Virus record (IMG/VR): IMGVR_UViG_3300046519_000295
Span: 1 to 45,553 of that record
Source: a virus
DNA: 45,553 nt
Reading direction: 5' to 3' (one strand)
The notes beneath the pieces were generated by a model. The model was given only the letters and a program-made list of their open reading frames with translations, did no database searches and had not been told where the DNA came from. The translations under genes were made by a program, and so were the position numbers. Below, one piece after another: positions 2 to 45,553 of the stretch. The stretch's first letter is position 1; every line of letters starts with the position of its first letter.

Positions 2-244
2 CAAGCGGTCAATCAAGTGACCGAAAAGAAGCTTCCCGTCGCTGACGTAGCGGCCCGTCTTGGTGTGTCGACGCATAGCCTCTATGCGTGGATAAAGCGC
101 TACAGCAAACCTCAAGAAGAACGGCAGCAAGACGATGACCAGCACGCTGAACTACGTCGACTGCGAGCGGAACTCGAGCGGGTCACTGAAGAGCGAGACA
201 TCTTAAAAAAGGCCGCCGCGTACTTTGCCAAGGAGTGCGGCTGA
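2..244 (+). CDS. IS3-family transposase OrfA, 5' truncated by window edge
   Basis: Helix-turn-helix DNA-binding protein of an IS3 element, which recognises the IS ends and forms the N-terminal part of the OrfAB transposase. The frame is open from base 2, so the start lies upstream; the GTG at 17 is internal. Visible are the HTH segment VADVAARLGVSTHSLYAWIK and a C-terminal leucine-zipper-like stretch (LRRLRAELERVTEERDILKK). The slippery A AAA AAG sits about 11 codons before the stop. OrfB overlaps by 10 nt in the -1 frame. Confidence 0.9.
   Translation, partial: QAVNQVTEKKLPVADVAARLGVSTHSLYAWIKRYSKPQEERQQDDDQHAELRRLRAELERVTEERDILKKAAAYFAKECG
205..211 (+). promoter_or_regulatory. Programmed -1 frameshift site (A AAA AAG)
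   Basis: The heptamer AAAAAAG lies in the OrfA zero frame as A AAA AAG, the standard IS3-family slippery sequence. The OrfB frame is exactly -1 relative to OrfA, so slippage here would give the OrfAB fusion transposase. This is family knowledge applied to a motif seen directly. Confidence 0.85.
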
Positions 245-1116
245 AGTACGCCTTTATCAAGCAGCGCGCGGGCGACTATTCCATTCGACGGCTTTGCCTG
301 ACGCTGAAAGTCCATCCCAGTGGTTATTACGCCTGGTTGTCTGAGCCGCAATCTGCACGCGCTAAAGATGATCAGCGATTGCTGGGTTTGATTAAGCATT
401 CATGGCTGGAGAGTGGCGGAGTGTATGGCTATCGCAAAATCCATGATGATCTTCGCGAGGTCGGTGAAGATTGTGGTCGGCATCGTGTGGCGAGGCTAAT
501 GCGTCTTGAGGGGCTGCGCTCTCAGACAGGGTATCGACGACGCCCTGGAAAGTACGGAGGTAAGCCAGCAGTCGCCTCACCCAATTTACTGAAGCGCCAG
601 TTCGATGTCGTAGAACCCAACAAAGTGTGGGTCACCGACATCACCTACATTCGCACGTACGAAGGCTGGCTGTATTTGGCTGTGGTGCTGGATCTGTTTT
701 CTCGTCAGGTCGTTGGCTGGTCAATGAAGTCGCAGATGACCAGTGATCTGGCCATTGATGCGTTGTTGATGGCGGTTTGGAGGCGTAAGCCGAAACAGGA
801 GGTGATGGTTCACTCCGACCAAGGCAGCCAGTACAGCAGCACCGATTGGCGCAGTTTTTTGAAGGCGAATAATTTGGTTGCCAGCATGAGTCGCCGAGGC
901 AACTGTCATGACAACGCCGTAGCCGAGAGCTTTTTCCAGCTTCTAAAGCGGGAGCGTATCAAGCGGAGAATCTACACCACGCGGCAAGATGCTCGTAGCG
1001 ATGTGTTCGACTACATCGAGATGTTCTACAACGCAAAACGCCGTCATGGTTTCAACAATCAGCTGTCACCGGTAGAGTTTGAAAAGCGTTACGCAATGAG
1101 CTTGCAAGGTGTCTAG
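235..1116 (+). CDS. IS3-family transposase OrfB (DDE integrase core)
   Basis: Catalytic half of the IS3 transposase. Residues 1-110 are the HTH_21-like region with the YGYRKIH motif; the rve integrase core follows. The catalytic triad is visible: D135 in VWVTDITY, D195 in VHSDQGSQY and E231 in DNAVAESFF, with the DD(35)E spacing expected of IS3. The GTG at 235 is the formal start, but production as an OrfAB fusion is the usual route. About 293 aa, full length for the family, with no frameshift. Confidence 0.95.
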   Translation: MRLKYAFIKQRAGDYSIRRLCLTLKVHPSGYYAWLSEPQSARAKDDQRLLGLIKHSWLESGGVYGYRKIHDDLREVGEDCGRHRVARLMRLEGLRSQTGYRRRPGKYGGKPAVASPNLLKRQFDVVEPNKVWVTDITYIRTYEGWLYLAVVLDLFSRQVVGWSMKSQMTSDLAIDALLMAVWRRKPKQEVMVHSDQGSQYSSTDWRSFLKANNLVASMSRRGNCHDNAVAESFFQLLKRERIKRRIYTTRQDARSDVFDYIEMFYNAKRRHGFNNQLSPVEFEKRYAMSLQGV

Positions 1117-13335: not shown

Positions 13336-13581
13336 ATGAATATTTACCGGCACACTTTCGCAGCTACCTGCCCAAACGACGGGGACTTGATCGTTTATCG
13401 ACTCGAAATACGAAGTCTCTGCATGATCTGGGTCGAGCACATCAAGGCGGCGACGGCGCTCATCAAGGCCGGAATCCAAGAACAGATCGCCGATCAGCTA
13501 CAGGAAACGCTTGGCGGTCACCTTGTCCTCACTGGTACGCACCAGGGCATCGAAATCGAATCGATAAGGCTGCCTGAATGA
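13336..13581 (+). CDS. Small phage protein (81 aa)
   Basis: ATG 13336 preceded by GAGGATCCCTT. MNIYRHTFAATCPNDGDLIV... contains a beta-rich N-terminal half and a helical segment (VEHIKAATALIKAGIQEQIA). The stop overlaps the TGT-like gene by ATGA, so they are co-translated. Resumption of the early operon after the inserted DUF2971 cassette. Function unknown. Confidence 0.65.
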   Translation: MNIYRHTFAATCPNDGDLIVYRLEIRSLCMIWVEHIKAATALIKAGIQEQIADQLQETLGGHLVLTGTHQGIEIESIRLPE

Positions 13582-14303
13582 TCGCTTATCACGGCACCCC
13601 GGTCGGCGGCACTCGCCAGGACGGCGCCCGCTTCCTGGCTGGGCGTCACGCACTGGTGCCGTTCCCGCGCCAAGACGACATGGGCATTGTTGCCGATGTG
13701 TGCCAGTCGTTCGTCTTCGACAATGGCGCCTTCTCCATCTGGAACAAGGGCGGGAAATTGGATGTCGACGGCTACACTCGCTGGGTTGAGCGGTGGCACC
13801 GGCACCCTGGCTTTGACTGGGCCCTGATCCCGGACGTGATCGACGGTGATGAGGCTGCAAACGATGCGCTTCTGTCGGCATGGCCAAAGGAGTTGCGCGG
13901 TGTGCCTGTCTGGCACCTGCACGAATCGATTGAGAGGTTGCAGATACTCGCCGCTGACTGGCAGACAGTTGCAATCGGCAGTTCCGGTCAGTGGTCCAGT
14001 CCAGGTACAAACCCATGGTGGAAGCGCATGGGCGCAGCGATGGATGTCATCTGCGACGATCACGGCCGACCTATGTGCAGACTCCACGGGCTGCGCATGC
14101 TTGATCCCGCGATCTTCCAATTATTGCCGCTGGCCTCTGTCGACTCCACGAACGCAGCGGTAAACGGTGGAAGCATCAGCCGCTTCGGAATGTACCCGCC
14201 GCCGACTGCCGGCCAGCGCGCCAACGTCATCGCCGACAGGATCGAGTCGCACAACAGTTCGCCGATCTGGCAGCGGGAAACCCAGGCCGAAATGGTGCTC
14301 TGA
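13578..14303 (+). CDS. Queuine tRNA-ribosyltransferase-like (DpdA-like) phage protein
   Basis: 241-aa TIM-barrel-like protein resembling phage TGT/DpdA-type enzymes, which exchange guanine for 7-deazaguanine bases in RNA or DNA. Motifs in barrel order: FVFDNGAFSIW (45-55; like the TGT substrate loop D-S/N-G-G/A-F), WALIPDVIDGD (81-91; candidate catalytic Asp), PVWHLHE (110-116), VAIGSSGQW (131-139; phosphate or base pocket) and CRLHGLRML (167-175). Zinc-binding Cys cluster of bacterial TGT is not visible. No preQ0-pathway gene lies nearby in the window. Translationally coupled to the 81-aa protein. Family placement fair, substrate unknown. Confidence 0.65.
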   Translation: MIAYHGTPVGGTRQDGARFLAGRHALVPFPRQDDMGIVADVCQSFVFDNGAFSIWNKGGKLDVDGYTRWVERWHRHPGFDWALIPDVIDGDEAANDALLSAWPKELRGVPVWHLHESIERLQILAADWQTVAIGSSGQWSSPGTNPWWKRMGAAMDVICDDHGRPMCRLHGLRMLDPAIFQLLPLASVDSTNAAVNGGSISRFGMYPPPTAGQRANVIADRIESHNSSPIWQRETQAEMVL

Positions 14304-17799: not shown

Positions 17800-18006
17800 A
17801 TGACCATCCAGTTCCTATCCCACGAGGAGGTTTGCGAGCTCACCGGCGCGCGGACCAAGGCAGGCCAGATCCTCAACCTCAAGAGGAATGGCGTCCGCCA
17901 CACGATTAAAGTGAACGGCTGGCCAAGTGTTACCGCCATGGCGGTGACCGCGGTCGGAACGTTTGAAGCGGAAAAACCCGTATGGAAATCACGTAAGGCC
18001 AGCTGA
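17800..18006 (+). CDS. DUF4224 excisionase-like protein
   Basis: 68 aa from ATG 17800 (GGAG at correct distance; GTG 17788 in frame is possible). FLSHEEVCELTGARTKAGQI and NLKRNGVRHTIKVNGWP are the DUF4224 core, a small helix-turn-helix type usually beside phage integrases and thought to act as directionality factor or regulator. It ends 1 nt before the integrase ATG, so the two are probably co-translated. Confidence 0.8.
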   Translation: MTIQFLSHEEVCELTGARTKAGQILNLKRNGVRHTIKVNGWPSVTAMAVTAVGTFEAEKPVWKSRKAS

Positions 18007-18007
18007 C

Positions 18008-19039
18008 ATGGGACGACGACCAAGTAAACCAGGCTCCATCGCCCGGCTGCGGGAGCGCAAGAAAGCAAGCGGCCGGGTTTTCTACTATTACGACACCGGC
18101 GGAAAGGACCGCAAAGAAATTCCGCTGGGGAGCGATTACGGTCTGGCGATCATGGAGTACGCGAAACTGGAGCGTGACCGCACAGCCACCGACCTTGTCG
18201 CCAAAGTCATAACTTTCCGATATGTCGCTGAAAAATATATGGTCGACATTGTTCCTACAAAGGGTAAGGCCACGCAGTTCGACAACAAACGCGAAGTGAA
18301 AAACCTGATCGCGTTCTTCGATGATCCGCCCGCGCCTCTGGAAACGATTGAGCCGTTGCACGTTCGCCAGTACCTCACCTGGCGTAAGGCGGCACCAGTC
18401 AGGGCGAATCGTGAAAAAGCCCTGCTGAGCGCGATCTGGAACTACGCCAGAGACAAAGGCTACACGTCGCTCGCCAACCCCTGCGCGGGCATCAAGGGCA
18501 ACAAAGAAACTGGGCGGGACACGTACGTAGAGGATGCGCTGTTCAAACGCGTGCACGATAAGGCCGACGTTGGCCTGCAGGATGCGATGGACCTTGCCTA
18601 TCTCACCGGCCAGCGGGTGACCGACACCAGATTGATGGATGAGCGAGACGTGCGCGACAGGCAAATTTGGGTACTGCAGGGCAAAACAAAGGCAAAGCGT
18701 CGGATTGAGGTAACAGGCGAGCTGAAGTTTTTGATTGATCGAATCATGTCCCGAAAGTCAGAACACAAAGTCCGCTCGACGCGGCTGATCGTTACAGAGG
18801 ACGGCACACCAATGACGGTGGCAATGTTGCGAAGAAGGTTTGACTTGGCCAGGGAGGCGGCCGGGGTGAAGAAATCTGAATTTCAGATGCGGGATTTACG
18901 CGCAAAGGCAGGTACGGACAAAGCCGAGTCCAGCGGTGACATCATGCAGGCGAGAGATCAACTTGGGCATACGACCGTGGTGATGACTGAGCAGTACATC
19001 CGGAATCGCATGGGCAAGAAAGTCACTCCCACCAAGTGA
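18008..19039 (+). CDS. int: Phage tyrosine integrase
   Basis: 343 aa. Arm-binding N-terminus (MGRRPSKPGSIARLRERKKA), core-binding domain about 65-165, catalytic domain after 170. Catalytic residues: R203 in LTGQRVTD, K226 or nearby in QGKTKAKRR, R298 in MRDLRAKAG (D replaces the usual H of HxxR), H321 in LGHTTVVM and nucleophile Y330 in EQYIRNR. ATG 18008 lies directly after the DUF4224 stop. It faces the 3' end of tRNA-Leu(TAA), 82 bp away, the standard arrangement for integration into a tRNA 3' end; that tRNA is its likely attachment site. Confidence 0.92.
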   Translation: MGRRPSKPGSIARLRERKKASGRVFYYYDTGGKDRKEIPLGSDYGLAIMEYAKLERDRTATDLVAKVITFRYVAEKYMVDIVPTKGKATQFDNKREVKNLIAFFDDPPAPLETIEPLHVRQYLTWRKAAPVRANREKALLSAIWNYARDKGYTSLANPCAGIKGNKETGRDTYVEDALFKRVHDKADVGLQDAMDLAYLTGQRVTDTRLMDERDVRDRQIWVLQGKTKAKRRIEVTGELKFLIDRIMSRKSEHKVRSTRLIVTEDGTPMTVAMLRRRFDLAREAAGVKKSEFQMRDLRAKAGTDKAESSGDIMQARDQLGHTTVVMTEQYIRNRMGKKVTPTK

Positions 19040-43984: not shown

Positions 43985-44009
43985 AACCGAAAAGGGGGCA
44001 TTTTCGGTT
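43985..44009. repeat. AACCGAAAA/TTTTCGGTT dyad containing a 16-mer shared with 19542
   Basis: Perfect 9-bp inverted repeat with a 7-nt spacer GGGGGCA. The right half, GGGGGCATTTTCGGTT (43994-44009), is identical to 19542-19557, in the same orientation. It lies at the 3' end of the possible late regulator gene, overlapping its stop by 2 nt. Function unknown. Confidence 0.55.
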
Positions 44010-44490
44010 ATCCAACTCGACGCAACTTTGACGCAACTTTGAGGAGACTTTGAGGCAAAACGCCCCGACCAGCGGTAAGCCACTGACGGGCATCTTCACG
44101 CTCGGCCAGCACAACAAGCAGCCGCTCATGCAAGCGATGCACCTGGTCGTAGTAAGTCTGTTTCGCCCTAGACTCGACCCCCAACAGATGCAACTGCATC
44201 AACCAGGTCGGCGCCGGATGATCGCCATAACGCAAACCGGCCAACCGCATCAATCGTTCACCCTGCTCATCCTGCCGCCCGATTTCCGACAGCGCAGCCC
44301 CAACTTGCTGGGCAATCGCATCAGGCCCAGCGCCGGCACCCAAGATGATCCGCGATCCCGGTGTACCGCGAGGTGCAGACCCACCCCACTCCATGATGGT
44401 CGCCATCGGGCTGCCCATACCGCCGCTCTCACCGTTCAGTCGGCATTGCTCACCCCAGTGCTTCAAAACCGCTTCCATTGCCCCGATCAT
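44008..44490 (-). CDS. Possible late-gene regulator (Q-position protein)
   Basis: 160 aa from ATG 44490, with GGGGGGAAGGGCG upstream; the frame extending to 44718 runs through the repeat field and is rejected. Helical C-terminal half (QTYYDQVHRLHERLLVVLAE; LTAGRGVLPQSLLKVASKL) fits a helix-turn-helix. Position between replication gene and holins is that of antiterminator Q in lambdoid phages. No homology proven. Confidence 0.5.
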   Translation of the reverse strand: MIGAMEAVLKHWGEQCRLNGESGGMGSPMATIMEWGGSAPRGTPGSRIILGAGAGPDAIAQQVGAALSEIGRQDEQGERLMRLAGLRYGDHPAPTWLMQLHLLGVESRAKQTYYDQVHRLHERLLVVLAEREDARQWLTAGRGVLPQSLLKVASKLRRVG

Positions 44491-44514: not shown

Positions 44515-44805
44515 CCCAACACAGAAAACCCACACCCCAACACAAACCCAACACAAATAAATCTTTTTAAAATCAATACTTTCAATCTGTCTGTGTTGAG
44601 TGTGTTGGGTTTGTGGGGTTTTTCTGCTCTCGCATAAGAAAAATTTCTGCACTCTATTTTCGCTGCGAATAACGTCATGCATGCGCGCACGCGACGCCAA
44701 ACCCAACACACCCAACACGCAGCCCGCAAACCCGCGTAATCAACGCCTCGAAACTGTGCTGGGTAGCCAAAACCAACCCGACACACACCCGACACACCCA
44801 ACACA
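44515..44805. repeat. Field of nine-base CCCAACACA repeats with a cruciform
   Basis: Ten copies of CCC[AG]ACAC[AG] or close variants: 44515, 44536, 44547, inverted at 44592 and 44601, then 44702, 44711, 44777, 44788 and 44797. Pairs abut with an exact 9-bp period. The block at 44525-44555 is an imperfect inverted match to 44592-44622 around an AT-rich core (44556-44591), so a large cruciform is possible. Lies between the primase-helicase and the regulator; no gene is in it. Confidence 0.75.
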
Positions 44806-44818
44806 CTATTAGGCGTAT

Positions 44819-45553
44819 TCATGCTGCAGCCGCCTTCACGTGTTCCCAGTTATCCACGTTCCAGCCGGCCAACTTTGCCTGGGCACGCCAGTCGCTGACG
44901 GTCTTGCCCAGATCGGCCGCCTTCAGTGATGGGGGCTGGGAAGCGCCGGGATCGCTCGGAAAGAAAAAAGCACCAAACCGCCGATTGCTGCCTTCAGTCC
45001 AAGGAATAGATCGGGTCTTATCCACTTCGGAACCGATGAACAGTGAAAACTTCGTCTGGCTCATCACGTGCTCTTTGTTGCGGTGGCACCATTCCAGAAA
45101 CAGCGAATAGAGATCGGTCGAAAGACACACGCCCCACAAATCACGCCCCAGCTCGCCGTACTTCCAAAGGTTGAGGAATGTCTGCCAGCCGGCCCGACTC
45201 AATGCCACCAGCCGTTCACGTGCCGCCGTACTTGGTGGCCGGGTGCGCTGGTCAAAGTCGCCGAGGTCAATCGACAACAGCCAGCCATACAGTGCCGCGA
45301 CTCCGCCGTTCTTCAGCTCCTGGCCGATAGCCTTCTGGCGGTCTGCCGGCAGGGTAAGTTCGGGCCACATCACCAGCATTCGGCGGTCGCTTTCGCTGAT
45401 GGGCCACGGCATGATCTCGTTGCTCAGGAACACCGCGTTCATGTGGTTGGCTTCTTCCCAGCCATTGATGAACTTCGACTCCATGCGCACCGTCTTGCCG
45501 GTGATCAAATGCTTGATCTTGCCCACCTGGTTGTACCGCTGATCGCGGCTGAC
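44819..45553 (-). CDS. Phage primase-helicase, C-terminal part, cut by window edge
   Basis: Frame is open to the window end (VSRDQRYNQVGKIKH in front of the first ATG shown), so the 5' part is missing. HMNAVFLSNEIMPWPISESD, DRRMLVMWPELTLPADRQKA and AARERLVALSRAGWQTFLNL resemble the C-terminal SF3-helicase/DUF5906 region of phage primase-helicases. Expected role: phage DNA replication initiation and unwinding. Adjacent repeat field would suit an origin. Confidence 0.8.
   Translation of the reverse strand, partial: VSRDQRYNQVGKIKHLITGKTVRMESKFINGWEEANHMNAVFLSNEIMPWPISESDRRMLVMWPELTLPADRQKAIGQELKNGGVAALYGWLLSIDLGDFDQRTRPPSTAARERLVALSRAGWQTFLNLWKYGELGRDLWGVCLSTDLYSLFLEWCHRNKEHVMSQTKFSLFIGSEVDKTRSIPWTEGSNRRFGAFFFPSDPGASQPPSLKAADLGKTVSDWRAQAKLAGWNVDNWEHVKAAAA

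Follow-up and report, generated by a model that had tools for sequence, protein, structure and literature searches.

The repeat array at positions 44515-44805 of the DNA analysed here (the window, which is the whole of IMG/VR virus record IMGVR_UViG_3300046519_000295, 45,553 bases) is very probably the replication origin of a temperate Pseudomonas phage, with iterons bound by the C-terminal winged helix of the phage's own primase-helicase, as indicated by sequence comparison, structural modeling and analogy with known elements. Computational analysis places the array at a fixed position and in a fixed layout behind the primase-helicase gene, finds its repeated word diverging together with the winged helix among relatives, and predicts the winged helix itself. 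The steps of initiation are proposed by analogy with SaPI, P4, and SCCmec. The Prim-Pol/DUF5906 primase-helicase would bind TGTGTTGGGT iterons through its C-terminal winged helix and assemble on two facing tandem arrays (blocks B and C; Table 1) and on block D; it would then melt the AT-rich core between C and D, where the helicase ring would be loaded and priming would start. Such a mechanism is of a known kind, because SaPI, SCCmec, PICI, and P4 show counterparts to it, but here it would operate in complete phages. No paper describing these phage origins was found in the open-access literature, and none of the matches listed by a literature search for the 9-mer is related by title.

The record is incomplete, and its right end falls inside the primase-helicase gene. 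The minus strand of the window encodes both terminase subunits, the portal, the head protease, the major head protein, the tail sheath, the tape measure, and baseplate proteins, and the plus strand carries genes for a transposase, an Erf-like annealing protein, an integrase, and a queuine tRNA-ribosyltransferase-like protein. The closest named relatives are Pseudomonas phages. At the right end, the order on the minus strand is the primase-helicase (stop at 44819), a gap of ~330 nt, and a small phrog_4300 gene. The array occupies this gap, its first iteron lying 13 nt past the stop, and the primase-helicase neighbor named by an earlier, sequence-only reading of the region is confirmed by matches to Pfam DUF5906 and to a PHROG family of DNA primases, with the array 3' of the gene.

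That reading had counted ten near-identical 9-mers, some abutting and some inverted, and a copy scan bears this out, with 11 copies of CCCAACACA/TGTGTTGGG in both directions. Six are exact (starting at 44515, 44536, 44547, 44601 [minus], 44702, and 44797) and five carry one mismatch (44592 [minus], 44711, 44755 [minus], 44777, and 44788); copies with two mismatches at 44610 and 44697 are left out of this count. The highest count for any 9-mer in these 321 nt is 11, whereas 300 Markov shuffles average 3.0 and never exceed 6. Across the window there are 21 matches with at most one mismatch, of which 11 fall in the array, and the next best 350-nt stretch has one, the array being the single cluster in the window. 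Blocks C and D form two iteron sets around a core that is indeed AT-rich (81% AT vs. 43% for the whole window). The opposing 31-nt arms attributed to this core, on the other hand, hold only with interruptions, because ungapped arms pair at 24 of 31 positions at most. When folded as single-stranded DNA, the core flanks yield an interrupted hairpin of ~34 pairs, and they contain a perfect 15-nt opposing pair (44541-44555/44601-44615).

Table 1. Features at the right end of the window, with strand and supporting observations.
Feature	Position	Strand	Observations
Next gene, phrog_4300 (unknown function)	44008..44490	-	PHROG match; outside the origin; missing from array-keeping S1- and Moraxella-type relatives
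Link frame, 111 codons	44487..44822	-	ATG overlaps primase stop (ATGA), TGA overlaps next ATG; open in relatives without amino-acid conservation
Block D, far side of core	44515..44555	-	Iterons 44547-44555, 44536-44544, 44515-44523
AT-rich core, candidate melting site	44556..44591	.	81% AT
Block C, inverted triplet facing block B	44592..44618	+	9-bp spacing; 44610-44618 with two mismatches
Block B, tandem iteron pair	44702..44719	-	9-bp spacing; copy scan and layout comparison
Single inverted iteron	44755..44763	+	One mismatch; copy scan
Block A, three iterons, direct relative to primase gene	44777..44805	-	44797-44805, 44788-44796, 44777-44785; copy scan
Primase-helicase, 3' part (244 codons and stop)	44819..45553	-	End of DUF5906 core and C-terminal winged helix; cut by record end; Pfam DUF5906, PHROG DNA primase, relative, model

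The association between array and primase is maintained well beyond the window. The sequence-only reading would have been undermined by relatives that share the primase-helicase and lack the repeats, but 80 of 80 IMG/VR relatives (84–100% identical, not deduplicated) carry 6–13 copies within 500 nt past the primase stop, the lowest counts (6 and 8) coming from incomplete stretches. Exact copies outside the array are absent from 79 of these 80 loci and number one in the remaining locus. A scan of bacterial genomes for the tandem 18-mer, restricted to one genome per species, returned 98 stretches. Of these, 57 hold at least six copies, and a primase lies at most 300 nt away in 51 of the 57. Among the remaining six, L145 has a primase-like tail where the stretch is cut off, making it a 52nd case, and the other five, judged by eye, look like simple or coding repeats from unrelated organisms. 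No primase lies near any of the 41 stretches that hold fewer copies. Furthermore, in a de novo test scoring the 400 nt that follow the primase stop by their most repeated 8-mer, 320 of 328 loci beat every control window from their own locus (5,602 controls). These loci remain from an input of 333, after dropping three with no usable primase stop and two with less than 250 nt downstream, and, as with the 80 relatives, the count includes near-identical records and some contigs present twice under two identifiers (e.g., L029 and L256), a redundancy that is reduced in a set of 90 representatives with less than 78% identity in the C-terminal part. The eight loci that did not pass are L192, L197, L309, L310, L313, L330, L399, and L406, with no array at all in L192, L309, and L406. 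Bordetella phage BIP-1, which has been called similar in the literature, shows no iterons 3' of its replication protein.

The place of the array after the primase is constant, but its word varies by clade (TGTGTTGGGT, TGTGCAGGGT, TGTGCGGGA, and TGGTTAGGGT). Distant phages present yet other words at the same place, such as TGGTTAGGG in KT1, TGTGAAGGG in Mcat9, TGTGCAGGG in Mcat4 and Mcat1, ATGTGCGGG in S1, and TCAGACAGA in Halomonas H4907. This retention of the array beside the primase, under words that change in distant relatives, supports the putative origin function that had been proposed from the sequence alone. The layout is also conserved. Among the 90 representatives, 67 have tandem pair B (9 ± 1 nt spacing), 82 have the facing tandem C, and 62 have both, whereas placing equally many copies at random yields both in 0.64 representatives on average and in 4 at most. 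B and C are separated by a median of 81 nt. The AT content of the 35 nt following block C averages 0.54 vs. 0.46 and is higher in 56 of 82 cases, the core being weak in GC-rich clades.

Comparison of words and proteins suggests that word divergence follows the winged helix, and not the helicase core. In the 68 of 90 representatives with a word fitting TGTGNNGGGT (22 were dropped because their word was out of register), word distance correlates with winged-helix distance when the helicase core is allowed for (partial rho 0.404, with 0 of 500 permutations as high and relatedness partly controlled), compared with a partial rho of -0.024 for helicase distance when the winged helix is allowed for. 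The strongest co-varying residues map mostly to the recognition helix and the wing (170–171, 179–183, and 191–194), although two residues of the helicase part, D4 and N30, score as well. For pairs of loci with helicases at least 90% identical, the word is shared in 1,474 of 1,476 pairs when the winged helices are nearly identical; when these have diverged, the word differs in 16 of 29 pairs and is still shared in 13. A natural swap is seen in L288 and L289, which share a long, nearly identical helicase block but have diverged C-termini and different words (TGTGCATAGT vs. TTAAGGGTT). If the vocabulary does evolve with the winged helix, each lineage would therefore have its own origin dialect, and domain swaps would already have been made by nature. 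The many words with matched winged helices constitute a natural data set on how initiators read origins.

A full-length relative in locus L002 combines Prim-Pol and DUF5906 domains (Pfam), as does Orf904 of the archaeal plasmid pRN1. The same DUF5906 core is found behind other primase N-termini in Stenotrophomonas phage S1 (Toprim-like) and Moraxella phage Mcat4 (zinc ribbon, Toprim-like), with Toprim matches that lie below Pfam's cut-off. Primase modules hence seem to have been exchanged while helicase, winged helix, and origin stayed together, because different N-termini (L187 and L189 vs. L002) are joined to the same DUF5906 helicase, with an array of the same kind 3' of the gene. When the C-terminal 244 residues are modeled with AlphaFold (mean pLDDT 86.7), the predicted winged helix spans residues ~120–205. 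The C-terminal region of NrS-1 polymerase is the best match of this model by structure (6k9c; Z 8.2, 190 residues, 4.1 A) and also the best by sequence-profile search (E 2.2e-18). Further structural matches include the SaPI5 primase-helicase (Z 4.9) and the winged helices of several origin-binding proteins, with Z values below 8 being weak evidence alone. The origin-binding domain of P4 is not among the structural matches listed, an absence that carries no weight.

In lambda-type origins, iterons lie inside the initiator gene, whereas all the copies reported here are 3' of the stop codon, an arrangement with closer counterparts in other elements. The C-terminal domain of SaPI Rep is reported to recognize iterons that directly follow the Rep gene (PMC7581432), and PICI origins are described as two iteron sets around an AT-rich region, 3' of the initiator (PMC6092414, PMC7581432). 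The array resembles both in its location directly 3' of the initiator gene, both in the window and in the 80 close relatives, and in the two iteron sets flanking an AT-rich region, a likeness that is weaker in GC-rich relatives. Unlike these satellites, the phages analyzed here are complete, with their own head and tail genes, and they use another protein subfamily and other words. PICI satellites are characterized by the lack of a full virion gene set, but terminase subunits, portal, protease, major head protein, sheath, tape measure, and baseplate are all present in the window. In P4, record annotation places crr directly 3' of the alpha gene, with short repeats in both directions and some of them 9 bp apart, and the alpha protein is reported to bind repeats through a C-terminal winged helix (PMC4234260), a domain that the model also predicts for the primase-helicase analyzed here. 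P4 differs in having two separate arrays (crr and ori), compared with one cluster in the (incomplete) window and one per genome in LPPA56 and KT1, and in using a Toprim domain where L002 has a Prim-Pol N-terminus. The SCCmec Cch2 helicase is likewise reported to bind direct repeats that lie past the end of its gene (PMC7581432), but these are three copies of a 5-nt repeat, the primase is separate, and the element is not a phage. Lastly, the likeness to NrS-1 polymerase in the C-terminal region is accompanied by a different target, since the NrS-1 genome is reported to contain two copies of an 8-nt recognition sequence, and not an array (PMC7102993).

A parallel in domain composition is pRN1, where Prim-Pol, DUF5906, and a C-terminal winged helix are joined in Orf904 and a stem-loop origin lies 3' of orf904, the authors reporting that they found no iterons (PMC4234260). 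As published, this archaeal plasmid origin is a stem-loop with one facing pair, compared with 11 iterons in the window. It also provides the precedent for an alternative in which a cruciform or stem-loop is bound by the primase-helicase and the repeats matter only through pairing. This alternative has only a slim chance of being correct. It draws on the strong single-strand fold of the array (z -4.4 for the whole region) and on the report that the pRN1 stem-loop is required for replication, with one stem mutant functional again only when symmetry was restored (PMC4234260). However, most copies are direct repeats, the words track the winged helix, and the hairpin around the AT core is lost in the Stenotrophomonas S1 clade, where copies past block C are reversed. 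The cruciform of the sequence-only reading thus survives as a strong fold that looks like a by-product of inverted iterons, and it was set aside as a functional element on account of the missing core hairpin in S1 and the many direct copies.

The pRN arms themselves also argue against recognition of structure. When the arms of pRN1, pHEN7, pRN2, and pDL10 (L434–L437) are pooled, they match themselves best when offset by exactly 9 bp, with agreement at 26 of 43 positions (shuffle mean 11.3, with 0 of 20,000 shuffles as high), although the signal is weak in pDL10 alone (5/11), pRN2 on its own slightly favors an offset of 5, and pRN1 is related to pHEN7. This periodicity suggests that tandem 9-bp iterons lie inside the published pRN stem, a reading countered by the symmetry-restored mutant mentioned above. 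The disputed pRN1 origin hence becomes directly testable, by changing the 9-bp units rather than the pairing.

Binding of the array by a phage regulator, as an operator or antitermination site controlling the next gene, is highly improbable. The array does lie between two genes of one operon, and the Halomonas phage gene in this place is annotated as an antitermination protein, but homologues of the next gene are missing from 109 of 109 S1-type and 36 of 36 Moraxella-type loci that retain arrays in their place after the primase, a search of the region for promoter and terminator consensus sequences found no match, and the words follow the winged helix of the primase. There is even less to recommend a packaging site (pac or cos-binding) read by the small terminase subunit, a very remote prospect: terminase genes are found within a few kilobases, and in S1 the small subunit begins ~340 nt past the primase stop, but the distance to terminase varies (~2 kb in the window, ~2.7 kb in Lodos) whereas the spacing from the primase is constant.

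The gap between the primase-helicase and the next gene is also crossed by an open frame (the link frame; Table 1). In Pseudomonas-type loci, its first 300 nt are stop-free in 147 of 156 cases, where ~3.8 stops would be expected. Among representatives with ATGA, GTGA, or TTGA at the primase stop, 27 of 45 are stop-free (6.5–11.7 expected under two nulls), as are 5 of 11 with CTGA (1.3–2.5 expected) and 3 of 34 with TAA or TAG (1.2–1.5 expected). Outside the iterons, however, codon-position entropy is even (1.00/1.07/1.02, compared with 0.74/0.67/1.26 in a primase control), and it is similarly even in S1-type link frames (1.34/1.27/1.31). That the gap holds a small repeat-rich protein gene with the 9-mers as its codons has next to no probability, in spite of this openness and of the ATGA overlaps at both ends of the frame in the window, given that the three codon positions are equally variable, indels are mostly not multiples of three, no family match is found in Pfam or PHROG, and TAA and TAG lineages keep the array without the frame. 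The earlier statement that the region is not a gene consequently stands with regard to protein conservation, but it overlooks a frame that stays open across the array. Because this frame is open beyond chance and yet shows no codon-position constraint, we infer that selection acts on the act of translation, which may serve to couple the next gene or to protect the transcript from Rho. Judging from the openness of the frame, ribosomes probably run through the array and into the next gene where the primase stop overlaps a start codon.

The 9-bp reading of pRN origins and the protein-free open frame are the two leads that go further than the origin itself. Combined with the conserved layout, they outline a broader proposition to which we assign an even chance: that within one family of primase-helicases a single origin grammar, made of facing tandem 9-bp words 3' of the gene, extends from archaeal plasmids to complete phages of several bacterial genera, that its words evolve along with the C-terminal winged helix, the pRN1 stem-loop being a minimal iteron pair, and that some of these origins are threaded by a frame kept translatable not for its product, but probably to keep ribosomes on the transcript.

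Several additional observations were made in the window. A DnaA box (TTATCCACG, 44850-44858, in the 3' end of the primase gene) was considered and judged not conserved, because only 24 of 80 relatives have, within the final 60 nt of the gene, a box with at most one mismatch. In the two genomes tried, cumulative GC skew turns at points other than the array, which is uninformative, and an RNA family search of the window returned nothing at the array and a single tRNA elsewhere. A GC-rich stretch of alternating purines and pyrimidines (GCATGCGCGCACGCG and similar) at 44679-44693 has counterparts in several clades, likewise located between B and C. The protein encoded at 13578-14303 (plus) matches PHROG 887 (queuine tRNA-ribosyltransferase); in phages, proteins of this type can belong to 7-deazaguanine DNA modification. 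Near the left end, a transposase-like protein (PHROG 157) is encoded at 235-1116 (plus), and an integrase-like gene, presumably of the tyrosine type, is located at 17963-19039.
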